Part shown: one piece after another, positions 6,749 to 23,214 of the stretch
How positions within the stretch are numbered: position 1 is the first letter of the stretch
How the letters are laid out: every line of letters starts with the position of its first letter
Source of the DNA: a virus
IMG/VR virus record: IMGVR_UViG_3300034198_021783
Span: 1 to 32,226 of that record
Length of the DNA: 32,226 bases
Reading direction: 5' to 3' (one strand)
Translations under genes and position numbers: made by a program
Notes under the pieces: generated by a model
Database searches by the model: none
The model's input: the letters and a program-made list of their open reading frames with translations, nothing else
What the model was told of the DNA's origin: nothing

Positions 6749-6788
6749 AGAGAGATTAAATGGCAACATTACAAAATACAACTATTAG
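6731..6788 (+). repeat. 58-base direct repeat at adhesin gene junction, copy 1
   Basis: This segment covers the last codons of adhesin 1, the stop, the ribosome site and the first codons of adhesin 2. It matches 7879-7936 with one mismatch (position 43). It marks the edge of a tandem gene duplication and could allow recombination that adds or removes an adhesin gene. Confidence 0.9.
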
Positions 6789-7896
6789 CGATACTGGATT
6801 TTTAAGACTTCCCCAAGGTGATACTTCCACTAGACCATCTCCAACACCAGGTATGATAAGACTTAACACTAGTAATAATCTTTTAGAATATTATGATAAT
6901 GCAGGTTGGAGACCTGTAACAGGAATAAGCAAAGGATCAATAGGCTCAGGTGGAAATACCATTCTTTTTGCCGGATCAAATGTTGGTCGTGCTAATAGTG
7001 TAGTTCATATGTTTACATCAGCAGGATCTCATACATTTACTCCTGCATTTACCGGTACAGTTGAAGTTTTAGTTATTGGAGGTGGTGCTTCTGGTGGAGG
7101 ACACTTAGGTGCTGGAGGTGGAGCCGGTGGCGTAACTTTTAATCGTGCTTTTCCAGTTACATCAGGATCGGGTATAGGTATAACAGTAGCAGGAACAGCA
7201 GCAAGACCTCCAGCTTATTCACAGTCCTCAACTCCTGGAAGTAATACTGTATTTGGTTCAATCACAGCTAATGGCGGCGGCGGCGGTGGATCATGGGATG
7301 GATATGCAGGTCGTCCTGGTGCTTCTGGTGGCGGCGGCTGTCCTGGCAGCAATGGCGCAGGATCAAACAATCATACCGGACCTAATGATAGTCGTAACAA
7401 AAATATGGGTGGACGCGGTGTTGCCGGTCAAGGTTTTCCAGGTGGATCAGGAATTAGATTTAATCGTCAAGGCGAGGATATGCATGGTGCCGGAGGAGGC
7501 GGCGGAGCAGGAGGCCCAGGGTTCAGTCATATGGACGATTGCCGTCAAGGATTACTAGCAGACGGCGGCCCTGGAATTGCTAACGACATTATGGGATATA
7601 CCTTATATTGGGGAGGTGGCGGCGGCGGCTCTATTCATCACGGTAATAGTACATTAGCAGCATCTGGTGGAATTGGCGGTGGTGGTGGATCAACTCAAAC
7701 TCACGGTGGTCCGAGATATCCTGGATCACAACATGGACCTAATAGTGTAGGTGGAGGAATGGCACTAAACTCAGGAGCAGGTGGTGCTAGTCATTATCAC
7801 GGAGGTAATGCTGGTGATAATACTGGCGGCGGTGGTGGCGGAGCATATGGCGAAGCAGGAAACGGCGGCTCAGGTATTGTTATAGTAAGATATTAA
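6760..7896 (+). CDS. Glycine-rich tail adhesin, paralogue 2
   Basis: The architecture is the same as the preceding gene: an N-terminal head with LEYYDNAGWRPVTG, an HMFTSAGSHTFTP segment, then a long polyglycine region with HH, HG and WD insertions, and the same GSGIVIVRY end. It has 378 residues. The ribosome site is AGAGAG just before the ATG; this leader is repeated almost exactly before the third copy. Differences from its paralogues cluster in the loops between glycine runs, as expected if those loops contact the receptor. The receptor-binding role is inferred from family resemblance. Confidence 0.8.
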   Translation: MATLQNTTISDTGFLRLPQGDTSTRPSPTPGMIRLNTSNNLLEYYDNAGWRPVTGISKGSIGSGGNTILFAGSNVGRANSVVHMFTSAGSHTFTPAFTGTVEVLVIGGGASGGGHLGAGGGAGGVTFNRAFPVTSGSGIGITVAGTAARPPAYSQSSTPGSNTVFGSITANGGGGGGSWDGYAGRPGASGGGGCPGSNGAGSNNHTGPNDSRNKNMGGRGVAGQGFPGGSGIRFNRQGEDMHGAGGGGGAGGPGFSHMDDCRQGLLADGGPGIANDIMGYTLYWGGGGGGSIHHGNSTLAASGGIGGGGGSTQTHGGPRYPGSQHGPNSVGGGMALNSGAGGASHYHGGNAGDNTGGGGGGAYGEAGNGGSGIVIVRY

Positions 7897-7936
7897 AGAG
7901 AGATTAAATGGCAACATTACGAAATACAACTATTAG
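7879..7936 (+). repeat. 58-base direct repeat at adhesin gene junction, copy 2
   Basis: This is the second copy of the 6731-6788 repeat, spanning the end of adhesin 2 and the start of adhesin 3. The distance between copies (1148 bases) equals one adhesin gene plus its spacer. Confidence 0.9.
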
Positions 7937-9044
7937 TGGAACAGGAACAATCCTAACTCCAAACAATACTCAAAGTACTTCTGGGGCAACTGGAAAATTA
8001 AGATATAGTAGTGCGAACTCACAAAACACTTTAGAATTTTTTGACGGTACTACTTGGAGACCTGTAACAGGATTTAGCCAAGGCCTTGTAGGTACAGGTG
8101 GTAATCAAATTAATTATGTACCCGGTGGCGGCATAGTTCATATTTTTACAGCAGTAGGAGGTCATACATTTACTCCCACATTCACTGGAACTGTAGACGT
8201 TCTAGTTGTCGCTGGCGGCGGCGGCGGCGGATCAAGCTGGGGTGGCGGCGGTGGCGGTGGCGGCGTTATTAGCAGTCGTTCATATCCTGTTAGCAACGGT
8301 ACTGGCATTCCGATTACAGTTGGCGGTGGTGGTGCTGGAACAGCAAATGGCAGTAATACAGTGTTCGGTGCTCTTACAGCAACTGGTGGCGGTCAGGGTG
8401 GAACTTGGGCACAAGGACAAAATGGTCTATTAGGATCACCTACAGCAGGACGTCCTGGAGGAAGTGGCGGCGGTGGCTCCAACACAGGCGACGGAACCGA
8501 TAGTAGAATAAGAAGTTATGGCGGTCTTAGCGTATCAGGCCAAGGATATCCGGGTGGATCTGGTGTAAGATTTAATGCTGATACTGAAAACACTCACAAC
8601 GGCGGCGCCGGCGGTGGAGCCGGAGGCGGCGGTGGATCCGCACCTGATGGTAGACAGAATTATAGAGGTAGCTTTAGAAGTGATCAAGTTTGCGGCGGCG
8701 CCGGCAGAGCATCTGATATGACAGGACAAATGTTATATTGGGGTGGCGGTGGAGGTGGTGGTGGTCACCTTGGCTGGGGTTCTTATTGCGGAGGTATCGG
8801 CGGAGGAGGTGGTGGTGGATATCATCACGCAGGTCCGTATGGAAATCAAAACGCGACCAACCCACAAAATACATTAACAGGCAACGTAGCGGGTCGACAA
8901 TTTGAGGGCGGTGGACAAGCGTGGAACAATGGAGCAACATGTAATCCTACCGTCGGTGGCGGCAATGGTGGTGATAATACCGGTGGTGGATCTGGAGGAC
9001 ATGGCGGAACTGGCGGCTCAGGAATCGTAGTAGTTAGATATTAA
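7908..9044 (+). CDS. Glycine-rich tail adhesin, paralogue 3
   Basis: This is the third tandem copy (378 residues), starting MATLRNTTISG and ending GGSGIVVVRY. It keeps the WRPVTG head, the GGHTFTPTFTGTVDVLVV segment and a polyglycine body with long GGC/GGT codon runs (for example around 8213-8270). Like the other two it has an LYWGGGG element, here near base 8735. Its last four bases overlap the 3' end of the convergent gene on the minus strand. A terminator hairpin follows at 9052-9081, so this is the last gene of the left-hand fibre operon. Confidence 0.8.
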   Translation: MATLRNTTISGTGTILTPNNTQSTSGATGKLRYSSANSQNTLEFFDGTTWRPVTGFSQGLVGTGGNQINYVPGGGIVHIFTAVGGHTFTPTFTGTVDVLVVAGGGGGGSSWGGGGGGGGVISSRSYPVSNGTGIPITVGGGGAGTANGSNTVFGALTATGGGQGGTWAQGQNGLLGSPTAGRPGGSGGGGSNTGDGTDSRIRSYGGLSVSGQGYPGGSGVRFNADTENTHNGGAGGGAGGGGGSAPDGRQNYRGSFRSDQVCGGAGRASDMTGQMLYWGGGGGGGGHLGWGSYCGGIGGGGGGGYHHAGPYGNQNATNPQNTLTGNVAGRQFEGGGQAWNNGATCNPTVGGGNGGDNTGGGSGGHGGTGGSGIVVVRY

Positions 9045-9766
9045 TTGTTTGAGTAGGGACATTTATTTGTCCTTACTTTTTCTAAAGATTCATAACGTTC
9101 TTTTAAAGGTCTAAATTTATTAGAATTTACTAAGTTGTTACATTCTATAATTTCATTCCATGGTGTAGGCGATTGAATTAGTTTAATTTTATCTGATGTT
9201 AAAAATTTAAAATAAGATATAGCATCGCCTTTTTTAATAATAATTTTTTCATAATTATTTTTTACTTCAAAAACAGTTTCAACAGGTCTAGTCCATTTAC
9301 TAATATCATATTCACCTGGAATTACTGTAGTTTTACTTGTAAAATCATTATAATTCATAAAAGCTGGTAATATCTGAACCATTGTCGACTCAACTGTAGT
9401 TAATACAACTAACCAATCAATTCCGATTAAAGGAAATTTTTTTTGATTTTTTAAAAATCTTATATCTATAAGTGATTCGAAAATTTCTTGCGAAATATTT
9501 TCACAAAAAATTCTAAATGATTTATTCTTTATATCAATTTCTAGTTCAATAGTAAGATCAAAAGGAGCACAAAAAACAAATGTGTTTTTTAAAAAATCAG
9601 TATGAGCAGGACATTTTAAAAAATCAGATCCCTTTCTAGATGAAATTATTTCCTTAGACAAACTTTTAAAAGGATTAAAATTTTTATCTAATAATTCTTT
9701 CACACATTCAGAGTGATCTATATTAAATTCACTACTAGTAATAAATGACCAATTAATTATTTTCAT
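9041..9766 (-). CDS. Conserved phage protein of unknown function, coupled to halogenase 1
   Basis: The product has 241 residues with no membrane segment or signal peptide. It has a KCPAHTDFLKNTFVF segment near residue 51, a beta-rich middle and a GDAISYFKFL motif near residue 180. I recall similar proteins in marine T4-like phages near oxygenase genes but know no assigned function. The ATG overlaps the stop of halogenase 1 in an ATGA, so translation is coupled and the two products may act together, for example as substrate or partner. The 3' end overlaps the last adhesin gene by four bases and contains that operon's terminator hairpin. I do not see the HxD...H arrangement of the surrounding oxygenases. 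Confidence 0.75.
   Translation of the reverse strand: MKIINWSFITSSEFNIDHSECVKELLDKNFNPFKSLSKEIISSRKGSDFLKCPAHTDFLKNTFVFCAPFDLTIELEIDIKNKSFRIFCENISQEIFESLIDIRFLKNQKKFPLIGIDWLVVLTTVESTMVQILPAFMNYNDFTSKTTVIPGEYDISKWTRPVETVFEVKNNYEKIIIKKGDAISYFKFLTSDKIKLIQSPTPWNEIIECNNLVNSNKFRPLKERYESLEKVRTNKCPYSNN
9052..9081 (+). terminator. Rho-independent terminator of the left fibre operon
   Basis: A 10-bp stem (9052-9061 with 9068-9077, one G-U pair) and a six-base loop TTTATT are followed by a T tract at 9077-9081. It stands eight bases after the third adhesin's stop and lies wholly inside the last codons of the convergent minus-strand gene. Confidence 0.75.
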
Positions 9767-11232
9767 AAATTATTAAGTTCGTTAATTCTATCGATTTCTA
9801 AATCGTGCTTTCGTGACCACACATGTTTATTTTTTTCATGTTCTACATAGTATTCATATATAATTTGCCTTATTTCTTCTTGAGAGTACGGAATATTTCT
9901 TGGCGTTATTTCGTATCCTAACTGTTGAAGACACATAGACCAACTACTTCCACCGAACATATAATTGTGCTTACTATCTACAGGGACTTTAACATTTGGG
10001 TTTTTTAATACTTCGAGGTAATGCAACATTCTATCAGAAGGAACAAATGTATTTCTAACATATTCCCAGAATTTGCTAGTTCTTAAATTGTCTGCATAAT
10101 GCATACTAACAAAATCAACACAATCTTCAAATAAAGTTATTAATTGAGAATTAAAATTATTCACGTCATTCTGGCTATACCATTGCTCGAAGATAGCATT
10201 ACTAAGTTGAGTAATTCCTACAGTAATTAATCCTACACCTGTACTTTCAAGAGGCTCAATAAATCCTCCACTTAAACCGATTTGAACTATATTACCTGTC
10301 CACTGATCCTTATTGTAAAAAGGATCCCAGTTAATTACACGAACATTTTCTTTCTTAATTCTACCATTCCAGTAGTTAACAAAGTATTCTTTTGCTTCTT
10401 CTGGATTTGTTATGTTTCTATTAAAAACCATACCACTACCAATTCTTGAAGAAATGCCAATCTTCCATACCCACCCGTGATCAACAGCATCGCATACTGC
10501 ATAAGGTTTAAATTCTTCAGGACGATCTTCATAAGGTACCTGGCAAACAACCGCAGTATTAACAAATAACCTTCCTTGTAAATCAACTCTTTCTTTTGAC
10601 TTCCTCAAAACACTATGAAACCCTGTACAGTCTACATATAGATCTGCTTTAATTTTATCACTGTTTTTCAGTTCCAAATAATCTATATGAGTATCATCTG
10701 TTTTGATAACATTTACAACTTCTGATTTAATAATCTTTATTTTATCTTGTAGTTTATTCTGAATATACAAAACAAGTTTTCCACAATCAACATGATAAGC
10801 ATATGCATGTAAATTAGAACTATCTACAGTATTATGTATAATAGAAGATTCGTAGGATGCTGTTACATATTTTTTAAAATCAAAATCCTGTGCTAAAGAC
10901 CAAATATCCCACAGATGAAAGTTTTTATCAACTTTTCTATTACCCTTATAAAAAGGATGCCAGATGTCGTTTCCAGTTTTTCGCCAATTAGTGAATAATA
11001 TTCCTGACTTGTATCCTGTATCAATCTTTGAAAACCAATCGTCTATCTGGAACCCACATTCATTCATAAAAGGGAGAAAGGATAGTAACGTAGCCTCTCC
11101 AACTCCTATCGAGTTTCCTACTTCCTTATCAACTACGGTAATATCAATAGCAGGATGATTGTTATGAAGATAAGCGGCCGCTAACCAAGCACTAGTTCCA
11201 CCGCCGACAATGACTAATTTTTCTACTTTCAT
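9763..11232 (-). CDS. Flavin-dependent tryptophan-halogenase-like protein 1
   Basis: Enzymes of this family use FADH2 and O2 to make HOX, which is passed to a lysine that halogenates the substrate. Visible features (489 aa): the FAD motif VGGGTSAW at 9-16, GVGEAT at 43-48, the catalytic-lysine region GYKSGILF with K75 (compare PrnA K79), a WVWKIG at 254-259 in place of the family WxWxIP, and EPLESTG at 326-332 carrying the catalytic-type Glu. An ATG at 11274 would add 14 residues. I prefer 11232 because the FAD strand then begins at residue 5, as is usual, and a TATAAGTA late-promoter-like octamer lies five bases upstream. Viral halogenases are known (cyanophage VirX1, which iodinates), so activity is plausible; substrate unknown. 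Confidence 0.87.
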   Translation of the reverse strand: MKVEKLVIVGGGTSAWLAAAYLHNNHPAIDITVVDKEVGNSIGVGEATLLSFLPFMNECGFQIDDWFSKIDTGYKSGILFTNWRKTGNDIWHPFYKGNRKVDKNFHLWDIWSLAQDFDFKKYVTASYESSIIHNTVDSSNLHAYAYHVDCGKLVLYIQNKLQDKIKIIKSEVVNVIKTDDTHIDYLELKNSDKIKADLYVDCTGFHSVLRKSKERVDLQGRLFVNTAVVCQVPYEDRPEEFKPYAVCDAVDHGWVWKIGISSRIGSGMVFNRNITNPEEAKEYFVNYWNGRIKKENVRVINWDPFYNKDQWTGNIVQIGLSGGFIEPLESTGVGLITVGITQLSNAIFEQWYSQNDVNNFNSQLITLFEDCVDFVSMHYADNLRTSKFWEYVRNTFVPSDRMLHYLEVLKNPNVKVPVDSKHNYMFGGSSWSMCLQQLGYEITPRNIPYSQEEIRQIIYEYYVEHEKNKHVWSRKHDLEIDRINELNNL

Positions 11233-11237
11233 AAAAC

Positions 11238-11245
11238 TACTTATA
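11238..11245 (-). promoter_or_regulatory. Late-promoter-like octamer TATAAGTA for halogenase 1
   Basis: It matches the T4 late promoter TATAAATA at 7 of 8 positions. It ends five bases before the chosen ATG (11232); if transcription starts six bases past the octamer as in T4, the mRNA begins at the A of the start codon. No Shine-Dalgarno is present. Confidence 0.55.
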
Positions 11246-11271
11246 TTTTTTTCAATCTGACTAAAAAAATT

Positions 11272-11279
11272 CATAAGTA
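11272..11279 (+). promoter_or_regulatory. Late-promoter-like octamer CATAAGTA for the 11287 oxygenase operon
   Basis: It faces away from the octamer at 11238-11245 across the divergent gap. It ends seven bases before the ATG at 11287, leaving a leader of about two bases; no Shine-Dalgarno is present. Confidence 0.45.
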
Positions 11280-11286
11280 ATAGACT

Positions 11287-11901
11287 ATGAATAAAAGCAG
11301 TTTATGTATAATAGATGACTTCTTAGATACAGATGAGTTTAACGAACTTTCTACATTTGTCTTAGGACAAAAGTTTCCTTGGTTTTATGGCGAGCATGTT
11401 TCTATAGATCCAAACGATGCTGAAGTAATTAGAGATCCTTTAGCCATGGAAACTTGGGGGTTTCATCATATAGTATTTGAAAAAGAATGGAGCATTAAGA
11501 GCTTTACATATAACACTCTTACACCATTATTTCAGAAGATGGAGAAAGAATTAGGCTTTACTCAAAATCATTTAATTCGAGTAAGGATGAGCATAAAATT
11601 TCAAAAACAAGGCTTTACTAGTAATAATTACAACATGCCACATGTTGATTATTATTACCCACATGAAACTCTTATTCTGTATCTAAATGATTCAGATGGT
11701 GATACTAGAATTTTTAATGAGTGGAGTACGTATACTGGTAAAGGTACAGCAATCGGTCCTGAAACATTCACTACACAAGCTAGAGTTACTCCAAAAGCTA
11801 ATCGATTAATTTGGTTTAATGGACTGCAATATCATACAGCAAGTAATCCAATAGAAGAAACTAAAAGAGCAATAATTAATATTAATTTGGAGCCGAGATG
11901 A
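11287..11901 (+). CDS. 2OG-Fe(II) oxygenase family protein
   Basis: The family couples 2-oxoglutarate decarboxylation to hydroxylation or related oxidation. The Fe(II) triad is clear: H119 and D121 in MPHVDYYYP, H183 in LQYHTAS, with R194 as the likely 2OG anchor in KRAIININ. A DSDGDTRIFNE strand lies between them and FPWFYG near residue 30. The protein closely resembles the minus-strand gene at 15827-16477 and, less so, that at 18030-18632 (FPWF near the N-terminus, PH(V/L)D). It is the first gene of a three-oxygenase operon; its stop overlaps the next ATG (ATGA). Substrate unknown. Confidence 0.85.
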   Translation: MNKSSLCIIDDFLDTDEFNELSTFVLGQKFPWFYGEHVSIDPNDAEVIRDPLAMETWGFHHIVFEKEWSIKSFTYNTLTPLFQKMEKELGFTQNHLIRVRMSIKFQKQGFTSNNYNMPHVDYYYPHETLILYLNDSDGDTRIFNEWSTYTGKGTAIGPETFTTQARVTPKANRLIWFNGLQYHTASNPIEETKRAIININLEPR

Positions 11902-12509
11902 GAGTCAATAATATTTTTCCTATTTCTCTTGCTAGGTTTACAATAGACAAAGAAATAATCGATAATTCTATTTTTTTAGTTAGAAAGTTTATTAAAGATA
12001 CTAATTTTGCTGATAACCCTCCTCCTGGAGAATTGTTAACTACATTTTATAAAGATAAAGATTTTCTAGGAAACTTAGGCGATCGACCTTTACTAGATTG
12101 TATTAATGGAGCAACAAGACAATATTTAGAAATATTAGGACTCGATCCAAAATGTTACATAGAGATAACATCATGGCTTCAATATAATCCTCCAGGATCT
12201 TATTTTGTTAGACACGATCATTATGGTGCGTTAATTAGTGGATGTTTATACTTAAATGTTCCTGAAAAGTCTGGCAACGTTCTTTTTCACAATCCTTTAG
12301 AAGCTCGTCGAGTAACAAATACGTTCTTTGAAAGAATTAAAAAAGAAGAAAATGATTACAATTTTAGCCATGTAAAATATGAACCAATAGTAGGTGAAAT
12401 GATAATGTTTGAGGCATGGTTACAACATACTGTAACACATAATCACAGTGAAGAAGATAGAATAGCAGTTGGTTTTAACATTTGGGCGGATAGAGATGTC
12501 AAAAATTGA
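11898..12509 (+). CDS. 2OG-Fe(II) oxygenase-like protein (TIGR02466/PF13759 type)
   Basis: This is a 203-residue protein of the type often seen in marine phages. The core runs RHDHYGALISGCLYLNVP (105-122), SGNVLFHNP, GEMIMFEAWLQHTV and DRIAVGFNIW. Predicted iron ligands are H106 and H177; the position two after H106, normally Asp or Glu, is H108 here, although D107 sits next to it. R188 is the likely 2OG contact. The ribosome site GGAG lies about nine bases upstream, and the start overlaps the preceding stop in ATGA. The 3' end overlaps the next gene by 14 bases. Substrate unknown. Confidence 0.82.
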   Translation: MRVNNIFPISLARFTIDKEIIDNSIFLVRKFIKDTNFADNPPPGELLTTFYKDKDFLGNLGDRPLLDCINGATRQYLEILGLDPKCYIEITSWLQYNPPGSYFVRHDHYGALISGCLYLNVPEKSGNVLFHNPLEARRVTNTFFERIKKEENDYNFSHVKYEPIVGEMIMFEAWLQHTVTHNHSEEDRIAVGFNIWADRDVKN

Positions 12510-13077
12510 ACTATGGTTTCCTGTAGCAATTTATCTTGAAGAAGATGTCTTATCAAAAGAAGAAAACGATAAACTGAAAGAACATTGTTTATCTATATAT
12601 GATAAAATTCCTACAGGAGGATCAGAATGGGTTGGAGGTACTTATACTTCACATGCTTCTCATAATTTAAATGACGATCCCGAATGTCAATCACTATTAG
12701 ATAAAGTTAATTATCATATACATCAATTTGCTCGGGCACATAATTGTGAAGAAACATACAAAAATAATTATTCTTGGTTAAATGTTGCTACAGGTAGTTC
12801 TTGGCAAGAATTTCATGCTCATAATGGTAATGTTTTTAGTGCCGTTTACTATGTTAGTGCTCCAGAAGGATCAGGAAGAATTGTATTTGAAGATCCTAAA
12901 GAGCCTGATATGTGTCCTATAAAAACTAAAGAAAATAGAAATCAATTAAGATATTCTCGTACAGGATATACCCCAGAAACAGGAACATTAATAATCTTTA
13001 GATCATATCTAAGACATTTAGTTGAACCTGGAACAAATACTGAACCTAGAATTTCTATAGCAATGAATTACAACTAA
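12496..13077 (+). CDS. 2OG-Fe(II) oxygenase-like protein (TIGR02466/PF13759 type)
   Basis: The product has 193 residues from the ATG at 12496; a TTG at 12469 would add nine residues lying inside the previous gene, so I reject it. N-terminal IELWFPVAIYLEED is typical of the family. Core motifs are WQEFHAHNGNVFSAVYYV (H107, H109), SGRIVFEDP, TGTLIIFRSYLRHLVEPG (H174) and R185 in EPRISIAMNYN. As in its upstream neighbour, His replaces the usual acidic iron ligand. It is the last gene of the plus-strand trio and overlaps the convergent halogenase 2 gene by four bases. Confidence 0.82.
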   Translation: MSKIELWFPVAIYLEEDVLSKEENDKLKEHCLSIYDKIPTGGSEWVGGTYTSHASHNLNDDPECQSLLDKVNYHIHQFARAHNCEETYKNNYSWLNVATGSSWQEFHAHNGNVFSAVYYVSAPEGSGRIVFEDPKEPDMCPIKTKENRNQLRYSRTGYTPETGTLIIFRSYLRHLVEPGTNTEPRISIAMNYN

Positions 13078-14540
13078 AATGAATTTCTTATATGTGATAT
13101 AAATTCTTTATGCCCGATAGTAGGTTGGATTTTTTCAAGAGTTCTAAGTTCTCTAAGAAAGTTATCGTCCCTTTTCTTAATTTCAGGATGCATCATTTCA
13201 TATTCTTTTCTAATCAAATCACGATTGAATAAATTTAAACCCGAAAGAATATGAATGTAATGTGCTTCACTGAATAATTTATAATCGGTTGTTCCTCTAA
13301 AGTCATCAGCAATAGGTAAATTCTTTTTCCATTTCTTTAAATTTTCTTCAAGACTTTCGGGAAGTTTAATATTCTGAATATCTCTCCAGAATGGTGTGTT
13401 ATCCTTTTTAGTAACATAGTGTAATATAACAAAGTCTCTGATATTAATTAGAATATCACTAATATCTTTATTATATTTTTCTATAGTTTTTTCATCGTAA
13501 TTCGGTAAGCGATGCATTAACAAAAAGGCTTGCTGAATACTTGTGCCTATTGATGTTGCTTCTAAAGGTTCAACAAAATTAGCACTTAGACCTATAGCAC
13601 AACAATTTTTAATCCAAACTTTATCTAATTTTCCTGGATCAAAATTAAATGCTTTACCAAACTCAATCTTTTTTCCTAAGAATCTTTCTACTTCTTCTTT
13701 AGCTTGATCAACACTTATATAATCACTGTCGAAGATATATCCATTTCCACTTCTTCCCCATACCGGAAGTGTAAACATCCACCCATAATCCATTGCTTGT
13801 GCTAGTGTCCACATATTATATTCTTCAGTATCATCATTAGGAAATGTAATAGCAGATTTCATCTTGAGATATTTTCCGTAAGATTCCCATTTTGCACCTA
13901 ACTTAGAAATTAATGCCTTAGCAAATCCTGTACAATCAATATAAAAGTCAGAAGAGTAATTATTATCTTCACCTATTAAATGGTCAATGTTACCGTCTTC
14001 GTCTATGATTATATCTAGTATTTCGTCGTTAACAACTTTAATACCTTTAATAATAGAAACCTTTGTAAGAAAGTCATTAAGTTTATGTGTATTAAAATGA
14101 TATTGATTCCACGGAGTTTCTGCGTCTGGGTTTAGTCTATCACGATATACTTTATTTTCCCAGGTATAGCTAGGATTTAAAAATTTATTAGGATAGCCCT
14201 CGCCTATTAGCTTGCCATAGATTGATAGATATTGTCCGTTTTTAAAATCTGCTTCTGGACCGATACTATGCATATAATCATTTTCTGCCCATCCTTTAAA
14301 CATAATACCACATTTAAAAGTAGAATCACATTCACGAATAATTGTTCGATAGTTTACACCTATATAATTCATAAATTCATTCCAATGTTCGGTACTACCT
14401 TCTCCAACTCCGACAATACCAATTTTCTTAGAACGAATTACTTCAATTTCTATCTCGGGAAACCTAGTCTTTAAAATTAAAGCAGCAACAAATCCTGCTG
14501 TTCCTCCGCCTACTACGGAAAATTTTTCTAATTTATTCAT
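13074..14540 (-). CDS. Flavin-dependent tryptophan-halogenase-like protein 2
   Basis: The 488-residue protein has the FAD motif VGGGTAGFVAA (10-20), GVGEGST (44-50), the lysine region STFKCGIMFKGW with K76 (PrnA K79 equivalent), IDCTGF near 201-206, and FVEPLEATSIG carrying the catalytic-type Glu. The halogenase signature WxWxIP reads WMFTLP at 254-259: the second Trp is Phe and Ile is Leu. The start has a weak AGGG about 12 bases upstream. It is a single-gene minus-strand unit; its ATG is 16 bases from that of the divergent gene at 14557 and its stop overlaps the convergent gene by four bases. Substrate and halide are unknown. Confidence 0.85.
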   Translation of the reverse strand: MNKLEKFSVVGGGTAGFVAALILKTRFPEIEIEVIRSKKIGIVGVGEGSTEHWNEFMNYIGVNYRTIIRECDSTFKCGIMFKGWAENDYMHSIGPEADFKNGQYLSIYGKLIGEGYPNKFLNPSYTWENKVYRDRLNPDAETPWNQYHFNTHKLNDFLTKVSIIKGIKVVNDEILDIIIDEDGNIDHLIGEDNNYSSDFYIDCTGFAKALISKLGAKWESYGKYLKMKSAITFPNDDTEEYNMWTLAQAMDYGWMFTLPVWGRSGNGYIFDSDYISVDQAKEEVERFLGKKIEFGKAFNFDPGKLDKVWIKNCCAIGLSANFVEPLEATSIGTSIQQAFLLMHRLPNYDEKTIEKYNKDISDILINIRDFVILHYVTKKDNTPFWRDIQNIKLPESLEENLKKWKKNLPIADDFRGTTDYKLFSEAHYIHILSGLNLFNRDLIRKEYEMMHPEIKKRDDNFLRELRTLEKIQPTIGHKEFISHIRNSF

Positions 14541-14553
14541 AACAATAAATATC
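14540..14553 (+). promoter_or_regulatory. Late-promoter-like element (AATAAATA core) for the 14557 gene
   Basis: The core octamer is 14544-14551 and ends five bases before the ATG at 14557, with no Shine-Dalgarno. The whole 14-base string TAACAATAAATATC recurs exactly at 18696-18709, before another oxygenase gene. Confidence 0.6.
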
Positions 14554-14556
14554 CCT

Positions 14557-15174
14557 ATGATAGAACTACAAGAAACACTTTTATTTGTAACTTCATGTTA
14601 CACTACTTACCTAAAAGATGTTGATAGAAACAAAATAATTGAATCTGTAAATTCTATTAAACAAACTCAAAAAGGCAATCAACTTAGTAATGCTGGAGGG
14701 TATCAATCTCATTCTTTAAAATCTCCTAACTATGATTGTTTAGAAACTATGAAATTATTTGAGAATTTAGTAATTCCAATAGGTAAAAGAATATCTAAAG
14801 AATGGGGATTACCTTCTGATATGAACAATGTAAGTTATTGGTATAATATCAACCCTAAATATTCATATAATCAAGAACACAATCATCCAAACTGTTTTCT
14901 AAGTGGAGTTTTTTATTTAAAAATTCCTACTAACAGTGGGAAAATATTTTTCTTAAGGTCTAATACAGAATGTGATCGAATGAATTTTATTACATCAGTA
15001 TTATCTAATAAAGGAATGAATGTTGATAATAATAGAATTAATTGTGAACATTGGTTTGTACCTTATGAAGGACTTTTAATATTATTTCCAAGTTATTTAA
15101 CACACTATGTAGAACAGAATTTAACTGACGATCTCGACAGTGATAGAGTATCTTTAGCCTTTAATTTTTCCTAA
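14557..15174 (+). CDS. 2OG-Fe(II) oxygenase-like protein (TIGR02466/PF13759 type)
   Basis: This is a 205-residue, single-gene plus-strand unit between two minus-strand units. Core motifs are SYNQEHNHPNCFLSGVFYL (H108, H110), NSGKIFFLRS, LLILFPSYLTHYVEQN (H183) and R197 in DRVSLAFNF. It is a third member of the HxH variant group, alongside 11898-12509 and 12496-13077. There is no ribosome site; the late-promoter-like octamer ends five bases before the ATG, so a leaderless mRNA is predicted. The stop overlaps the convergent gene by four bases. Confidence 0.82.
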   Translation: MIELQETLLFVTSCYTTYLKDVDRNKIIESVNSIKQTQKGNQLSNAGGYQSHSLKSPNYDCLETMKLFENLVIPIGKRISKEWGLPSDMNNVSYWYNINPKYSYNQEHNHPNCFLSGVFYLKIPTNSGKIFFLRSNTECDRMNFITSVLSNKGMNVDNNRINCEHWFVPYEGLLILFPSYLTHYVEQNLTDDLDSDRVSLAFNFS

Positions 15175-15830
15175 TAATTAAATTGTGAAACAAAGAAAAG
15201 TAATGATAATCTAGGTGTACCTGTTTCTGTAACAAAACTATTAGGTCTATGCCATAACTTAGAATCATAAGCAATTAGTCGATTAAATTTATTTCCTATT
15301 CTAATAGTTTCTTTATCTTCAAATAATTTTAAATTATTTTCAAATCCAATAACATATTCTTCTGTAAGTTTATCATGAAGATAAAAGTTTTTCAAAGCTT
15401 CTTTGTCGTCAGGTAGCTCTTGAATATCATCTATATTATCAAGAGCAGGATCAAAAATAGATGTTCCTGTATCAAAATTACATTCATTCTCTGTAAGATA
15501 CACTAAACCTGCTAAATTACCATAATCAGTATGAATCCACCCTCTGTTATAATAGGGATACTCTACAGGATCGTTTATATGAAAACAAAGAAATAATTCA
15601 AACATTCTTATTCCTGGAAAAACATCAAGACTAATTCTATTAGCAAACCAATCAGCAAATTGTTTTATTTCAGGCTCCTCAAATCCTAATAAGTTTCCAG
15701 TTCTTCTTCCAGGATAATATGTAGATCTAGAAAAATTTAACGATGTAGACATCTTAACAACATCCTGGGGTTTCTCAAAATAATTGTCTCTACAAATTAA
15801 GTAATTTTGATAAGGATGGTATTCAGTCAT
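15171..15830 (-). CDS. 2OG-Fe(II) oxygenase-like protein (DUF6445-like)
   Basis: The 219-residue protein belongs to a different subgroup from the other oxygenases. Iron ligands are predicted as H100 and D102 in GWIHTDYGNLAGLVYLTE and H194 in DSKLWHRPNSF, with R207 in TPRLSLLFFVSQ. A FDTGTSIFDP strand follows the first motif. The overall layout resembles what I recall as DUF6445, a family with a likely 2OG-dioxygenase fold. It is the last gene of a four-gene minus-strand operon; its ATG overlaps the preceding stop (ATGA). Substrate unknown. Confidence 0.8.
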   Translation of the reverse strand: MTEYHPYQNYLICRDNYFEKPQDVVKMSTSLNFSRSTYYPGRRTGNLLGFEEPEIKQFADWFANRISLDVFPGIRMFELFLCFHINDPVEYPYYNRGWIHTDYGNLAGLVYLTENECNFDTGTSIFDPALDNIDDIQELPDDKEALKNFYLHDKLTEEYVIGFENNLKLFEDKETIRIGNKFNRLIAYDSKLWHRPNSFVTETGTPRLSLLFFVSQFNY

Positions 15831-16477
15831 AATATTTCAAAATCAAAGTTAATTATTATTCTTGAACTATATTCTACTGGATAATTTCCAGAGTGATATC
15901 TATGTCCATTAAAAAATAATCCTGTTCCTTTCTTAGGGGTTATACGTAACAACTCAGGTAACGGATCTGCTAATGCTGGATTGTATATTTCTTCGTTAGT
16001 ATTAAAAATTTTATTAAAAATAATTGTATCACCATCACTATCGTCTACATAATAAATTAATGTATTATATGGGCTATTAGTATTAAAGTCAACATGCGGC
16101 GCAGCATATTTAAATGCTGTATGACCTTGTCCTTTATGTGTATACCTTAATCTAATTCTTAATATTTCTTTAACTTCTATACCTGTTTTATCTGTAAAAA
16201 AATCTAATATCGATTTAAAAAAATCATAGTGCGGAGAATACGATCCACCGTCAAAAGCCATATGAAAGAATCCAACATCATCTGTAATATTAGGATCAAC
16301 ATAATCTGGAGTTGTTCCAATACCATAATGATCTGGATGTCCTATTCTATGAAGAAGGAACCACGGAAAATGTTGATCACCTTGTACTCTAGTAATAATA
16401 GAATCCTGTAAAGATTTAGGAACTATATTATCTATTAAGAGAATTTCATCTTTAATATTTTTTATCTGAAAATCCAT
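15827..16477 (-). CDS. 2OG-Fe(II) oxygenase family protein
   Basis: The triad is complete: H128 and D130 in APHVDFNTN, H195 in GHRYHSGNYP, and R206 in SSRIIINFDF. HFPWFLLHR near residue 36 and DDSDGDTIIFNK near 145 match the gene at 11287, so the two are paralogues on opposite strands. The ribosome site AAGG lies about 10 bases before the ATG. The 5' end lies inside the last 26 bases of halogenase 3 and the 3' end is coupled (ATGA) to the next oxygenase. It is likely co-transcribed with halogenase 3. Confidence 0.85.
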   Translation of the reverse strand: MDFQIKNIKDEILLIDNIVPKSLQDSIITRVQGDQHFPWFLLHRIGHPDHYGIGTTPDYVDPNITDDVGFFHMAFDGGSYSPHYDFFKSILDFFTDKTGIEVKEILRIRLRYTHKGQGHTAFKYAAPHVDFNTNSPYNTLIYYVDDSDGDTIIFNKIFNTNEEIYNPALADPLPELLRITPKKGTGLFFNGHRYHSGNYPVEYSSRIIINFDFEIL

Positions 16478-18011
16478 TCTCGTACCTTAAATTTCTAAAA
16501 TAATTTATAAATTCTTTATATGTATATAAATTTGTAGATTCTGCCCTCCATTGATCTTGTAGATCGTAATATGTAATAGCAGTAATTGGTTCTAATGGTC
16601 CGTAATCGGGTAAATCTAATTGTAAATCTTTTTTAGCTGCTTCTTTGCTTATAAGATGTAATCCAGCCATTACATAACTATACAGTGGCCATCCAGCTGA
16701 TCCATCATAGGAAGGAAAATCATGTATTGAAGGAACTCTAGTTTTTGCCATTTCTAATATATCATTCACATAGTCAGTTTTAGTAACTCCAGTTTTAATA
16801 TACTTCCAAAATTCACTATCATCTCTACCACCCATGTAATGCATAATTAAAAATTCTTTGATATCATCATACATTCTACTAGTTCTTTTGTTATAGATAT
16901 TTCTTGAACCATCATTTAATGTTTCGTCAATTGTGGATTTTAAGAATTCAAATATAAAAGTTTGAGCTTGTACAATTGACGAATGGATTGATGTTGCTTC
17001 TAATGGCTCAAGAAAAGCAGAACTTAAGCCTATAGTAACACAATTTTTTATCCATGATTTTTCTTGTCTTCCTGCGTCAAACTTTATAACTTTACGAATA
17101 TCAACTTTTTTACCTAAAATTATTTCAACTTCTTCTTGTGCTTTTTCTGGGGTTGTATACGCATCGCAAAATACATATCCACAACCTCTACGATCCATTA
17201 ACGGAATTTGCCACATCCAGCCATTTTTTTGCGCCCAGGCTGTAGTAGAAATATCCGGAACTTCACCATCTTCGTATTCTAACCAAAAAGGAATAGCAGT
17301 ATTAAGAGGTAGATTTTTTTGATAACTAATCCACTTACCTCCTAACGCATTAATTAAAATCTTATGAAATCCAGAACAATCAATAAACATATCTCCATTA
17401 ATTGTTCGATCATCACTTAAATCAACACTTGCGATATTTCCTGTTTCGGAGTTGAGAGCAACTTTTACAACTTCTCCGTCGATAAATTCTAAGTTAGCAC
17501 ATCTAAGACATAACTTTTTAAAATATTGGCCTACTTGGTAAGCGTCAACATGCATTGCTTGTCTAGGATCTAAAAAAGTTCCTACATGTTTATTAAACGA
17601 AGACATACCATGATAAGTTAAAAATCCGCATTTCGAAGCTGTTAACAATTTAGAATAATCTAAGTTATTAAGTCCCCAAGCAAATAAAGGATCAGGAGTA
17701 CTAGTATTTGTCCAACTTCCGTCTATAGGTCCAATATAATATTGATCTATATTGTTAGTCCATCCTTTGTGTTTGATCCCAAACTTTAATGTAGCACCAG
17801 TTTCTAATATAAATTCATTTATATCACAACCTAAATCATAGAAAATATTCATCAATACATCGGTAAATCTTCCTGTAGTGCTTTCTCCTACTCCAACTAC
17901 TCCTATTTTTGATGATTCAATTACTTTAACATTATGATTCGGATGTCTTTTTGCTGCTAATAATGCAGTAATCCAACCTGCTGTTCCACCACCGACAATA
18001 ACTATATCCAT
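16452..18011 (-). CDS. Flavin-dependent tryptophan-halogenase-like protein 3
   Basis: This is the most canonical of the three (519 aa): FAD motif IVGGGTAGWITA at 5-16, GVGEST at 40-45, ATLKFGIKHKGW with K76 (PrnA K79 equivalent), IDCSGF near 210-215, a perfect WMWQIP (WxWxIP) at 265-270, and LEPLEATSI with the catalytic-type Glu. The start puts the FAD strand at residue 3; the ribosome site AAAAAGG lies about nine bases upstream. It sits in an operon after an oxygenase (gap 18 bases) and overlaps the next oxygenase by 26 bases. This close packing with 2OG enzymes suggests one pathway or one substrate. No flavin reductase is nearby, so FADH2 must come from the host. Confidence 0.9.
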   Translation of the reverse strand: MDIVIVGGGTAGWITALLAAKRHPNHNVKVIESSKIGVVGVGESTTGRFTDVLMNIFYDLGCDINEFILETGATLKFGIKHKGWTNNIDQYYIGPIDGSWTNTSTPDPLFAWGLNNLDYSKLLTASKCGFLTYHGMSSFNKHVGTFLDPRQAMHVDAYQVGQYFKKLCLRCANLEFIDGEVVKVALNSETGNIASVDLSDDRTINGDMFIDCSGFHKILINALGGKWISYQKNLPLNTAIPFWLEYEDGEVPDISTTAWAQKNGWMWQIPLMDRRGCGYVFCDAYTTPEKAQEEVEIILGKKVDIRKVIKFDAGRQEKSWIKNCVTIGLSSAFLEPLEATSIHSSIVQAQTFIFEFLKSTIDETLNDGSRNIYNKRTSRMYDDIKEFLIMHYMGGRDDSEFWKYIKTGVTKTDYVNDILEMAKTRVPSIHDFPSYDGSAGWPLYSYVMAGLHLISKEAAKKDLQLDLPDYGPLEPITAITYYDLQDQWRAESTNLYTYKEFINYFRNLRYENGFSDKKY

Positions 18012-18029
18012 GTTAGTACCTTTTTCTAA

Positions 18030-18632
18030 CTATATATATGTTACAACAAGCACTAATCTCTTAGATCCTGATGCGGGATATCTTTGAGCGTGCCAGTGCC
18101 CTTTAAAAGTTACTGCTGTATATTGAATACTAGGAATCATATAAGTGTAAGAAAAGTCATCAGGCCATACAATCGTTTGTCCTTGGTCACATGATGTAAG
18201 ATACATAATAAAATTGTTGTGTGGCCAGTGATGATCCAAATGAGGAGCTGTATGCAAATCGCTATTATGCCATGTAAGGTTTAAATTAGCTCTAAATATA
18301 TTTTTATATTTTAGATTATTTTCACTCATAAATCTGTGAAATAGTTCAAGAAAGAATTCAAAATATGAACTTACTTCGTTAGCAGGTCTTTCAGTATGTT
18401 TGACATTTTCTTCTTCTGTTCGTATTAAAAGAGTATGACTTAAAAAAGATCCATTGTCAAATTTAATATGAGGTTTTATCTCTTTTGGTATATTTTCTTC
18501 ATCACCGAATGTTTGTTTATCTTGCCAAAACCAAGGAAAATGTGGGCCTAATACAAACTTTTCTATAAATTCTTTTTCTCTATCATTTACATGTATTGGT
18601 TTTTGTAATATAATAGATTCTAAATTAGACAT
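18030..18632 (-). CDS. 2OG-Fe(II) oxygenase family protein
   Basis: This 200-residue protein heads the minus-strand operon that includes halogenase 3. Predicted iron ligands are H131 and D133 in TAPHLDHHWPHNN and H181 in GHWHAQRYP, with R192 in KRLVLVVTYI. HFPWFWQDK at 31-39 links it to the paralogues at 11287 and 15827, but the middle strand reads CDQGQTIVWPDDF, so it is the most divergent of the three. The ribosome site AAAGGA lies about seven bases before the ATG, and a weak late-promoter-like octamer lies further upstream. Confidence 0.85.
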   Translation of the reverse strand: MSNLESIILQKPIHVNDREKEFIEKFVLGPHFPWFWQDKQTFGDEENIPKEIKPHIKFDNGSFLSHTLLIRTEEENVKHTERPANEVSSYFEFFLELFHRFMSENNLKYKNIFRANLNLTWHNSDLHTAPHLDHHWPHNNFIMYLTSCDQGQTIVWPDDFSYTYMIPSIQYTAVTFKGHWHAQRYPASGSKRLVLVVTYI

Positions 18633-18652
18633 CGTTGATTCCTTTATATTAA

Positions 18653-18660
18653 TACTTAAC
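18653..18660 (-). promoter_or_regulatory. Weak late-promoter-like octamer GTTAAGTA
   Basis: It lies 20 bases before the ATG at 18632, with the ribosome site between. It mirrors the stronger element on the other strand at 18700-18707 across the divergent gap. Two or three positions differ from TATAAATA, so this is tentative. Confidence 0.3.
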
Positions 18661-18695
18661 CATCATATGCTTGAAAAAAAAATAAGTTGATTTTT

Positions 18696-18709
18696 TAACA
18701 ATAAATATC
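18696..18709 (+). promoter_or_regulatory. Late-promoter-like element (AATAAATA core) for the 18729 operon
   Basis: It is identical over 14 bases to 14540-14553. The core is 18700-18707, 21 bases before the ATG at 18729; a GGGGG ribosome site lies between, so this transcript would have a normal leader. Confidence 0.6.
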
Positions 18710-18728
18710 AGAAAATAATGGGGGTTTT

Positions 18729-19328
18729 ATGACAAATACTGATAGTAATTTTACCGATGCTGCTGTAGACGCAGCAAAAAAAACAGCTTCTTTAGAAATT
18801 ATGTCAATTAATAAATCTGTTTTATTCTCTACAGAGGATTGTAAAGATATATTATCTACATGCGTTGAAGAATTATGGTTGCAATCGACAGTTATCGGAG
18901 ATTCAAATCTTCATCAGTCTAAAAGACAAAAATTAAGAGGTGATACAGCAGGATTTCCATTTTTAAATATTAGAGAAGTAACTAAAAGTGCAAACGACGA
19001 AATATATGATTTTAGTTTATTAGGTATTATTGATCAAGATTTTCCTCAAGTATTCAAATATTCAGAAGGTGATTACTATAAAATGCATTTGGAATTAAAT
19101 CTAATGGCTCCTTCTAGAAAAATTACATTTATTATCAATTTAAATGATCCTAACGAATATGAAGGTGGGGATATTGAATTTTTAAATATCAATGCTGACT
19201 CTTCTCTTTTAAAGGAACAGGGATCTTGTTTGATTTTTCCTTCTTATATTCCTTACAGTATAACCCCAATTACAAAGGGAAATAAGTATGTTTTAGTCGG
19301 ACATATTCACGGAGCGTTATTTAAGTGA
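18729..19328 (+). CDS. Degenerate PKHD-type 2OG oxygenase-like protein, probably not catalytic
   Basis: The 199-residue protein aligns by eye with the C-terminal half of its neighbour at 19325: INLNDPNEYEGGDIEF matches SLNDPKEYDGGNLQF, and GSCLIFPSYIPYSITPITKG matches GSVIVFPSHIPHQVTPITRG. The key residues are altered: HxD is H120-L-E122, the distal His is Tyr (Y176) and the 2OG-binding Arg is Lys (K186). Loss of the distal His makes ordinary 2OG oxygenase activity unlikely; a structural or regulatory role, perhaps as a partner of the intact neighbour, is possible. The start has GGGGG four bases upstream; an in-frame ATG at 18801 is an alternative. It overlaps the next gene as GTGA. Confidence 0.8.
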   Translation: MTNTDSNFTDAAVDAAKKTASLEIMSINKSVLFSTEDCKDILSTCVEELWLQSTVIGDSNLHQSKRQKLRGDTAGFPFLNIREVTKSANDEIYDFSLLGIIDQDFPQVFKYSEGDYYKMHLELNLMAPSRKITFIINLNDPNEYEGGDIEFLNINADSSLLKEQGSCLIFPSYIPYSITPITKGNKYVLVGHIHGALFK

Positions 19329-20113
19329 TATTAGAATACCACTATTGGTACTTTCAATCAGCTATACCTTTAACTATTTGTGATCAAATACTTGAAATGG
19401 GTATAACTAAGATGCTCGATGAACAAAAGAAATATGGCGAAGAAGCACTAATAGGGACAACCGGCGGCTGGAAAGAAAAACATAAAGATACTAATGCTAT
19501 ACCAACAAATCATGAGACCACAGAATCCTTAGTAAAAAAAGGTATTGATCTTAATAACATTTATATTAGAGATTCAAGTGTAACATTCTTAAATAATTCT
19601 GAACTTTACGATCTTGTATGGCCCTATATAGTTGAGGCTAATAAACGTGCCAAGTGGAATTTTGATTGGGATTATACTGAAGATATGCAATTTACAAAAT
19701 ACGGAATAAATCAGTTTTATGGCTGGCATACTGATTCTTCATCAATTCCTTATCAACCATTTGATCCAGAAGTTGATCCAATTCATAAAAATTCTGATGG
19801 TACTCCTTTTTATAATCAAATGGGAGAAACTATGCCAGAAGATCATAATAAAACTTCTAATCCCCAAATGATGGGAAAAATAAGAAAGATTAGTGTTACT
19901 GTTAGCTTAAATGATCCAAAAGAATACGATGGTGGAAATTTACAATTTGATCTAGGCCCTCATCGTTCGGATCGGTTTCACACATGTACTGAAATCAGAC
20001 CAAGAGGCTCAGTAATTGTATTCCCTTCTCATATTCCTCATCAAGTAACTCCAATTACTAGAGGAACTAGGTACAGTTTAGTTTGCTGGAGTTTAGGAGC
20101 TCCGTTTAGATGA
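19325..20113 (+). CDS. PKHD-type 2OG-Fe(II) oxygenase
   Basis: This is a prolyl-4-hydroxylase-type fold protein of 262 residues. All key residues are in place: H135 and D137 in FYGWHTDSSS, H239 in FPSHIPHQVTP, R249 in GTRYSLVCW. The KISVTVSLNDPKEYDGGNLQF strand pair is typical of PKHD/PiuC-like hydroxylases, and similar genes are frequent in marine T4-like phages. The start is GTG, overlapping the previous stop as GTGA; starting here gives the N-terminus EYHYWYFQSAIP, which looks complete. The stop overlaps the next ATG (ATGA), so three oxygenase genes are translationally linked. Substrate (protein side chain or small molecule) unknown. Confidence 0.87.
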   Translation: MILEYHYWYFQSAIPLTICDQILEMGITKMLDEQKKYGEEALIGTTGGWKEKHKDTNAIPTNHETTESLVKKGIDLNNIYIRDSSVTFLNNSELYDLVWPYIVEANKRAKWNFDWDYTEDMQFTKYGINQFYGWHTDSSSIPYQPFDPEVDPIHKNSDGTPFYNQMGETMPEDHNKTSNPQMMGKIRKISVTVSLNDPKEYDGGNLQFDLGPHRSDRFHTCTEIRPRGSVIVFPSHIPHQVTPITRGTRYSLVCWSLGAPFR

Positions 20114-20712
20114 CTAACTCGGACTTTTTTAGTGAAAACAAATACGTTGCAGTTCAAAAAATGATACCGACTGATTTGTGTAGAATTATTACCAAGTATG
20201 CCCTTTTAAAAGAAGAAACAGAATTTACGCCAGAAATTGGAAAAGAAGCTCAAGTAGAAAATGCACATTCAGTGTACAGCGATACATTAATGGAAACTAT
20301 GCTTTATTTTTTACATCCTCATATGGAGTAAAACACAGGATTAAAATTATGTCCAACTTATACATATTATCGTGTATATCATCCTGGTATGAAACTTGAT
20401 ATTCACCGAGATCGAGAAAGTTGTGAAATAAGCACAACTATATGCTTCGGATTTAATTATACACAAAAAGATCCTGATTATAAATGGGGAATGTATGTTG
20501 AGCCCGGAACTCTTATTAATCAGGACCCGGGAGATGCTATAATATATAGAGGATGTGAAATTAACCACTGGAGAGATGTTTTTGACGCTGGGACCGGCAG
20601 TTACCAAGTACAGGCATTTTTTCATTACATTAATGTTAACGGGCCGTATTACCCAAAATTTGCTTATGATTCTAGATCTGGATTAGGCGTGAGAAATGAT
20701 AAGTATAAATAA
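20110..20712 (+). pseudogene. 2OG-Fe(II) oxygenase gene interrupted by one in-frame TAA
   Basis: The frame from the ATG at 20110 meets TAA at 20329-20331 after 73 codons, then continues open in the same frame to the stop at 20712. Read through, it would be a 200-codon protein, the usual size here, with IHRDRESCEIS (H99, D101) and EINHWRDVF (H153) all downstream of the stop. A change of one base (for example AAA or GAA to TAA) explains it; there is no frameshift. The downstream part could restart at the ATG at 20389 and keep the triad, but would lack about 90 residues. It is coupled to the previous gene by ATGA. Alternatives are a sequencing error, a strain polymorphism or stop-codon readthrough. 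Confidence 0.8.
20704..20711 (+). promoter_or_regulatory. T4-type late promoter TATAAATA
   Basis: An exact match to the T4 late consensus, lying over the last codons and stop of the preceding interrupted gene, 30 bases before the preferred ATG of the next gene at 20742. Confidence 0.7.
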
Positions 20713-20741
20713 ACAGTGATTTATTAATGTTGGGAGATACT

Positions 20742-21182
20742 ATGTCAAAAAGATTTACAGTAGATGATATTGTAGAAGTCACAAAAATAGCCGGAATGAT
20801 GGGTGTCGATGCTATTTGGTGTACTATACTTTTCAAAGGTTGTAAAAACCCAGTAGAATTTTATGCTTGGGAACGTGCCGAAGATGACTTCCAACGAGAA
20901 ATGTATAAAATTCTTAAAGAAGAAAAGTTTGGTAAAGTACGTGACGGTTCTGGAGAATGGTATATTACTATTCCCCCAGATCAGTATAAACTCGAAGAAG
21001 CTGCTCTAGAGAAGCGTTTAAAACTACTAGTAGAAAGTGATTTTTCTGATCTACCCGTTACCCAAGCAAGACTATCAGATAAGCAAAAAACTGAATGGGC
21101 AGAATACCGTCAAGCTCTTAGAGATATGACAGCTCAAGAAGGATTTCCTTGGGACGTTGATTGGCCAGTAAAGCCAAAGTAA
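20742..21182 (+). CDS. Tail-assembly-chaperone-like protein
   Basis: The 146-residue acidic protein (MSKRFTVDD...) has a C-terminal part containing LPVTQARLSDKQKTEWAEYR then QALRDMTAQEGFPWDVDWP. This is the hallmark of the phage tail-assembly/tail-fibre-assembly chaperone family (PF16778-like: D..LP..R..W..YRQ.LRD...Q.GFP..V.WP). The N-terminal half, with a WCTILFKGCKNPVEFYAWERAE segment, is unfamiliar to me. I prefer the ATG at 20742 over 20727 because GGGAG lies six bases upstream of it. An exact late promoter precedes it and a strong terminator follows, so it can be its own transcription unit. The likely role is in assembly of the tail or fibres encoded on both sides. Confidence 0.75.
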   Translation: MSKRFTVDDIVEVTKIAGMMGVDAIWCTILFKGCKNPVEFYAWERAEDDFQREMYKILKEEKFGKVRDGSGEWYITIPPDQYKLEEAALEKRLKLLVESDFSDLPVTQARLSDKQKTEWAEYRQALRDMTAQEGFPWDVDWPVKPK

Positions 21183-21184
21183 GT

Positions 21185-21210
21185 AAAAAGGCGCTTTAAG
21201 CGCCTTTTTT
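21185..21210. terminator. Bidirectional rho-independent terminator
   Basis: A perfect inverted repeat, GGCGCTT/AAGCGCC (21190-21204), is flanked by A5 on the left and T6 on the right, so it works in both directions. It separates the plus-strand tail chaperone gene from the convergent groEL, and the T tract runs into groEL's stop codon. Confidence 0.92.
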
Positions 21211-23177: not shown

Positions 23178-23214
23178 TACGCCTCCTAATTATATAAATT
23201 TGGCGCTGTATTTA

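Follow-up and report, generated by a model that had tools for sequence, protein, structure and literature searches.

A conserved island of halogenase-like and oxygenase-like genes beside the tail-fibre genes of a marine phage, with a possible role in tailoring attachment proteins

Why would a phage carry three flavin-dependent halogenases (FDHs) and ten oxygenase-like genes in one block among the genes that build its tail? The question is raised by IMG/VR record IMGVR_UViG_3300034198_021783, a linear contig of 32,226 bases from a marine virus of bacteria, which was analysed at its full length and is called the window here. Between positions 9041 and 20712 it carries fourteen genes with hardly any spacers: three FDH-like genes (H1 to H3), ten genes resembling 2-oxoglutarate (2OG) oxygenases (O1 to O10, a count of "oxygenase-like" genes that includes O8 with its pseudo-site) and one gene for a protein termed U1. 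An earlier note on this DNA had described three halogenase-like and ten 2OG-oxygenase-like genes in under 12 kb, and all of them are found at their coordinates with their families supported. The island lies between three glycine-rich adhesin-like genes on the left (5672-9044) and a series running from a fibre chaperone to gp15 on the right (20727-25019), which agrees with the position between adhesin/fibre and neck/tail genes given in the note, and its GC content is 0.31 versus 0.42 and 0.38 in the flanks. Our answer, held tentatively, is that these may be late enzymes that hydroxylate and halogenate the neighbouring fibre and adhesin proteins. The genes of the island are as follows.

U1, 9041 to 9766, minus strand: beta-clip-like protein (phrog_17480), overlapping H1 by 4 nt
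H1, 9763 to 11274, minus strand: FDH-like protein (PF04820), in a deep clade of its own
O1, 11287 to 11901, plus strand: 2OG oxygenase-like, phrog_274 group (with O6 and O7), HxD...H...R
O2, 11898 to 12509, plus strand: 2OG-FeII_Oxy_5 (PF13759), HxH...H...R
O3, 12496 to 13077, plus strand: 2OG-FeII_Oxy_5 (PF13759); longest open reading frame (ORF) from 12469, likely ATG at 12496
H2, 13074 to 14540, minus strand: FDH-like protein (PF04820), in a clade common to P-SSM2, S-H38 and S-SCSM2R
O4, 14557 to 15174, plus strand: 2OG-FeII_Oxy_5 (PF13759)
O5, 15171 to 15830, minus strand: DUF6445 / phrog_1644, HxD...H...R
O6, 15827 to 16477, minus strand: 2OG oxygenase-like, phrog_274 group
H3, 16452 to 18011, minus strand: FDH-like protein (PF04820), in a clade near alphaproteobacterial FDHs
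O7, 18030 to 18632, minus strand: 2OG oxygenase-like, phrog_274 group
O8, 18729 to 19328, plus strand: PF13640 family, aromatic residue in place of the distal His, conserved pseudo-site
O9, 19325 to 20113, plus strand: 2OG oxygenase (PF13640), distal His and Arg invariant, HxD in 26/28, in tandem with O8
O10, 20110 to 20712, plus strand: prolyl-4-hydroxylase-like (phrog_2954), with an in-frame stop at codon 74 in the window only

The island is a real, linked and conserved block rather than an oddity of one contig. Conservation was examined in 25 IMG/VR contigs carrying at least six marker genes, and for each gene as many as 34 other contigs supplied orthologs for alignment. Rather than being unlinked and randomly spread in these relatives, the genes keep the order of the window in 23 of the 25 contigs, and since none of 2000 permutations was as good in the 21 collinear relatives with ten or more genes, the shared order is not due to chance. 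The remaining two (L060 and L061) have the H1-H3 block inverted as a unit and still intact between the same flanks. Protein identity to relatives is 45-79% for most island genes, and three to five FDHs were counted per record in eight records sampled from the family. The median ratio of nonsynonymous to synonymous substitution rates (dN/dS) lies between 0.07 and 0.16 in 13 of the 14 genes, O5 having no usable pair, values that point to purifying selection on all tested island genes.

The three halogenase-like proteins match the Trp_halogenase model PF04820 with E values of 1e-82 to 5e-92 and scores of 275-310 bits against a cut-off of 21 bits, and they also match phrog_2928. Their FAD motif (GGG) is kept in the orthologs of H1, H2 and H3 wherever it is covered, and the catalytic Lys and active-site Glu are invariant in every covered ortholog. 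At the position of the WxWxIP motif H3 has WMWQIP, H2 WMFTLP and H1 WVWKIG. By family and residues H1 to H3 are thus PF04820 FDHs, and halogenation is their predicted activity. The Trp4 substrate motif was found, in either of its published patterns, in none of 92 sequences, the FDH orthologs and VirX1 among them, and free-tryptophan halogenation of the group A/B kind was rejected on its absence. Peptide-acting FDHs such as MibH exist, and PDB 5UAO, which we take to be MibH, is among the PDB relatives of the FDHs found here. In the tree H1, H2 and H3 form three separate, deep and well-supported clades and VirX1 a fourth, to which an extra FDH lying beside U1 in several relatives is related. The three genes are therefore not recent duplicates, and their separation suggests a division of substrates or positions among them.

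By profile comparison the ten oxygenase-like proteins fall into five groups (O1/O6/O7, O2/O3/O4, O8/O9, O5 and O10), with O7 grouped with O1/O6 at 97%. Pfam 2OG or DUF6445 models back O1-O6, O8 and O9, with O1 and O6 scoring below gathering, and O7 and O10 have no Pfam 2OG match. The PHROGs names "DNA endonuclease V", "minor coat protein" and "ferrochelatase" are carried by phrog_274, phrog_1644 and phrog_2954, the families of O1, O5, O6, O7 and O10; these appear to be misannotated 2OG-oxygenase-like families. The Fe-binding histidines are retained in nine of the ten proteins, O8 being the exception, and the HxD/E...H triad is invariant among orthologs of O1, O5, O6, O7 and O10 and present in 26/28 for O9. 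O2-O4 have HxH rather than HxD as the proximal metal motif, as does the solved PF13759 relative 3BVC, and because HxH...H is kept with no acidic ligand at the usual position, their chemistry is less certain.

Two genes had been described in the earlier note as damaged, one degenerate and one interrupted by a nonsense codon. The first is O8, whose 25 orthologs all have Y/F/W in place of the distal His, so that the HxD/E...H facial triad is absent; its dN/dS is about 0.11, consistent with purifying selection despite the lost residue, and it is a candidate pseudo-enzyme with a conserved pseudo-site, perhaps acting as a partner of the tandem O9. The second is O10, and here only the stop itself is borne out. 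A near-identical contig, IMGVR_UViG_3300032221_000476, agrees with the window in all but one of 21,557 bases (99.995% identity), and because that sole difference lies in the stop codon (20329-20331) and leaves O10 intact in the other contig, the stop is a population variant or a sequence error and not decay. The predicted structure of an intact O10 ortholog (predicted local distance difference test score, pLDDT, of 87) has a prolyl-4-hydroxylase-like (P4H-like) fold. In Foldseek it matches with an E value of 3e-9 and TM scores of 0.62-0.65 with the double-stranded beta-helix (DSBH) fold present, and it resembles the protein-acting prolyl hydroxylases EF-Tu P4H, PHD2 and viral collagen P4H.

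The earlier note also reported an unknown protein coupled to a halogenase, and this is U1, which shares its 4-nt overlap with H1. The U1 model is confident (pLDDT 88) and has a weak likeness to the dUTPase beta-clip fold; a true dUTPase was considered and rejected, the PDB matches being weak. Among viral structures Foldseek gave better matches, to unnamed phage proteins (E value 1e-14) and to a protein of S-CAM3 (1e-10). A KCPA...AP-DF pattern of U1 recurs in the protein directly after the FDH in four cyanophages, and comparison of U1 with the cyanophage U1-like proteins by hhalign gave an E value of 7e-4 but a probability of 27%. Because U1 adjoins an FDH, a role as its partner is suggested.

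The linkage of the enzymes to the tail-fibre genes was examined in 79 contigs that were chosen by their tail-fibre protein alone and scanned over 10-kb flanks. FDH genes were found 48 times downstream and never upstream of the fibre gene, and oxygenase genes 61 times downstream and never upstream, with an FDH present in 31 of the 79 loci. Several lineages share one series of parts, namely a fibre, an S74 protein, tandem proteins of 200-380 residues and then the enzymes. The window has this layout itself, with FDHs and several oxygenases just downstream of its fibre and adhesin genes, and the neighbouring genes are the following.

TF, 1 to 4314, plus strand: tail fibre gene, incomplete at the window edge, the anchor of the positional test
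4670 to 5671, plus strand: S74-chaperone-domain fibre protein
GR1-GR3, 5672 to 9044, plus strand: three tandem glycine-rich adhesin-like proteins (PF21722), candidate substrates
APC, 20727 to 21182, plus strand: tail-fibre assembly chaperone-like (PF16778), with ATAAATA upstream at 20705
21209 to 25019, minus strand: GroEL, GroES, NUDIX and gp15 tail sheath stabiliser, a conserved right flank

The GroEL/GroES pair (21209-23177) is kept beside the island with 58-79% and 60-81% identity across relatives, and its orientation is reversed in one clade of them (L054-L059 and L062).

Evidence on the time of expression comes from the late-promoter core ATAAATA, which occurs at five sites in the window (14545, 18701, 20705, 26551 on the minus strand, and 26560) versus about 20 expected. 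All five lie 3-31 nt before a plausible gene start, as if the motif were avoided elsewhere. Two of them belong to island genes.

14545 to 14551, plus strand: ATAAATA late-promoter core upstream of O4, kept in 14/17 orthologous loci
18701 to 18707, plus strand: ATAAATA late-promoter core upstream of O8, kept in 4/24 orthologous loci only

The full T4 motif TATAAATA was also tried and set aside, having one site, fewer than chance. Shared promoter motifs, which the earlier note had taken as a sign of joint late expression, are thus present before O4 and O8, and the minus-strand operons of the island have no such core. On the basis of the promoter cores the island is probably expressed late, at least in part.

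A nucleotide search of phages with the window gave no match, and the lineage was placed by its proteins. The gp15 of the window is closest to those of PA5oct-like Pseudomonas phages and of Sinorhizobium phage Phosso (36%), and in a relative of 152,808 bases (G001) the major capsid protein shares 66-71% identity with its PA5oct-like/Phosso counterparts and the DNA polymerase 52% with that of Phosso. As judged from these sequences, the window belongs to an uncultured lineage of jumbo T4-like phages and not to the cyanophages, and the host is probably a proteobacterium. In PAC2 the gp15, NUDIX and fibre genes are laid out alike, but the island is absent.

Halogenases of the prnA type and many 2OG oxygenases have been noted in cyanophages, where they are usually counted as scattered auxiliary genes. 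The packed block that is found in relatives of the window is found in simpler form in known phages of this kind, so that the two enzyme classes recur together in two distant phage groups. In Syn10 two FDHs come after a gene for a 1,317-residue protein and several genes of adhesin size; next are a U1-like protein, a small ORF and ten further genes, of which nine match oxygenase PHROGs seen in the window and the tenth is phrog_8014, of unknown family. Syn10 thus resembles the window in its fibre/adhesin-sized genes, FDHs, U1-like protein and about ten oxygenases, with phrog_81, 274, 1644, 61 and 2954 in common, whereas it has two FDHs rather than three, these belong to another clade, its island lies all on one strand and the phage is a member of the Kyanoviridae rather than a PA5oct/Phosso-like jumbo phage. 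The second FDH of Syn10 is VirX1 (CPUG_00131, PDB 6QGM; genome HQ634191), so that VirX1, given in the earlier note as a single viral halogenase, in fact lies in an island with two FDHs and about ten oxygenases. Nor does the statement that no comparable array was known stand. In S-CREM1, next to a collagen-like protein, a single FDH precedes eight 2OG genes and a JmjC gene, P-TIM40 has two FDHs with oxygenases after them, and S-RIM44 has two FDHs and at least five oxygenases ahead of neck genes. All three are alike in having one or two FDHs and about 5-9 oxygenases directly after fibre/adhesin genes, and differ in that the FDHs are fewer and are not interleaved with oxygenases, identity being about 25-37%. 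Four annotated 2OG/phytanoyl-dioxygenase genes and an O10-like gene likewise lie between fibre-side and neck genes in the Pelagibacter phage HTVC008M. No account of these genes as one fibre-linked island was found in the literature, of which coverage was partial.

Bacterial FDHs of the BrvH type (group C) share PF04820, the catalytic Lys and Glu and the lack of the Trp4 motif, but when the surroundings of 80 bacterial FDHs were scanned with the phage oxygenase profiles, 79 showed no partner. The 80th locus (L155:4515-11124), filed under a Verrucomicrobia metagenome-assembled genome (TMED56), has three O2-type oxygenases, a sulfotransferase (PF13469), two FDHs and O1- and O9-like genes, and it resembles a piece of a phage genome that bears a different version of the island.

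We propose that the island may serve jumbo T4-like phages as a conserved module for tailoring. Its enzymes would be made, at least partly from late promoters, while the tail fibres are being built, and would act in the host cytoplasm on the fibre and adhesin proteins encoded next door. The 2OG oxygenases would hydroxylate side chains, the FDHs would use host reduced flavin, O2 and halide to give halogenated aromatic side chains, and U1 may serve as an FDH-associated adaptor or substrate binder. The attachment proteins would in this way be chemically diversified, which may bear on adsorption. Such tailoring of proteins is favoured because of the position beside fibre genes and the recurrence in two distant phage groups, because of the late-promoter cores before O4 and O8, and because of the P4H-like O10, the absent Trp4 motif and the absence of scaffold-making enzymes, none of which were detected in the island by family profile scans.

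Several observations weigh against it. Glycine-rich adhesins and FDHs show no association in their occurrence (Fisher p=0.29), and these adhesins were accordingly rejected as the specific substrate; the adhesin-position proteins of FDH loci show no Tyr or Trp enrichment, in a test that is confounded by spurious ORFs. The one FDH of HTVC008M is nearby but separate, next to the terminase, and a third FDH of S-RIM44 (L244:10001-11437) lies well away from the fibre island, close to talC, hli and tRNA genes, which suggests a second kind of halogenase use in phages. In the parts of the S-CREM1 virion proteomics report that were available, such modifications are not reported, nor is looking for them described. 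Finally, Phosso has nicotinamide adenine dinucleotide (NAD) salvage genes at the equivalent site, so unrelated cargo is possible there.

Of the other explanations, the tailoring of a small molecule fares best, though we consider it unlikely: a metabolite of host or phage, such as a toxin, antibiotic, protectant or surface sugar, would be hydroxylated and halogenated. FDHs classically act on small aromatics, VirX1 is known, from the title of the paper on it, to halogenate diverse small substrates, and the idea of a prnA antibiotic recurs in the literature. A published precedent is the 10-gene halogenase/2OG/carbamoyltransferase cluster of S-SSM6a, which was proposed to make a metabolite or decorate a polysaccharide (Iyer 2021, PMC7824862). 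This cluster, of other make-up, is likewise carried by a jumbo phage and combines a halogenase and several 2OG/DSBH oxygenases, but it also has carbamoyltransferases, a HemK-like methylase and phosphatases and is not described as fibre-linked (PMC7824862). Family profile scans gave no match to a carbamoyltransferase or HemK-like methylase in any island gene, nor to a methyl- or glycosyltransferase, a nonribosomal peptide or polyketide synthase or a scaffold enzyme; together with the missing Trp4 motif this argues against a small-molecule pathway, which also leaves the strict fibre linkage unexplained.

It is less probable again that the fibre-neck junction is simply a hot spot that tolerates insertions and has gathered unrelated accessory genes by chance. 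The Phosso genes fit this, as do the nearly empty site of PAC2 and the varying content of the island, but chance does not account for both enzyme classes and a U1-like protein recurring in two distant phage groups, for an order kept over 45-79% identity or for a block inverted as a unit, and the data already hint that FDH and 2OG genes are commoner there than other cargo. We regard as improbable to a further degree a takeover of the host in which the enzymes modify host proteins such as translation factors. The top structural match of O10 is a prolyl hydroxylase from Pseudomonas putida, and one of its entries shows the enzyme bound to EF-Tu, but the late-promoter cores before O4 and O8 and the fibre linkage point to assembly and not to early takeover. 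Modification or repair of nucleic acids, an older idea put forward in the literature for cyanophage 2OG genes near uvsY/uvsW, is very improbable, the subfamilies being P4H-, PF13759- and DUF6445-like rather than AlkB/TET and the island lying among virion genes.

Viral halogenases have so far been treated as individual biocatalysts, with no natural role assigned to them. With somewhat less confidence than for the tailoring role of this island, we suggest that two distant groups of large T4-like phages may run a dedicated oxidative-halogenating line that decorates receptor-binding proteins after translation, a new route of virion maturation in which VirX1 would be included. There is a counterpart of the island in VirX1's own phage, and the question is therefore testable in cultured viruses. 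If true, tailoring of this kind would give phages a new means of varying the chemistry of their attachment and may be a source of protein-acting halogenases.

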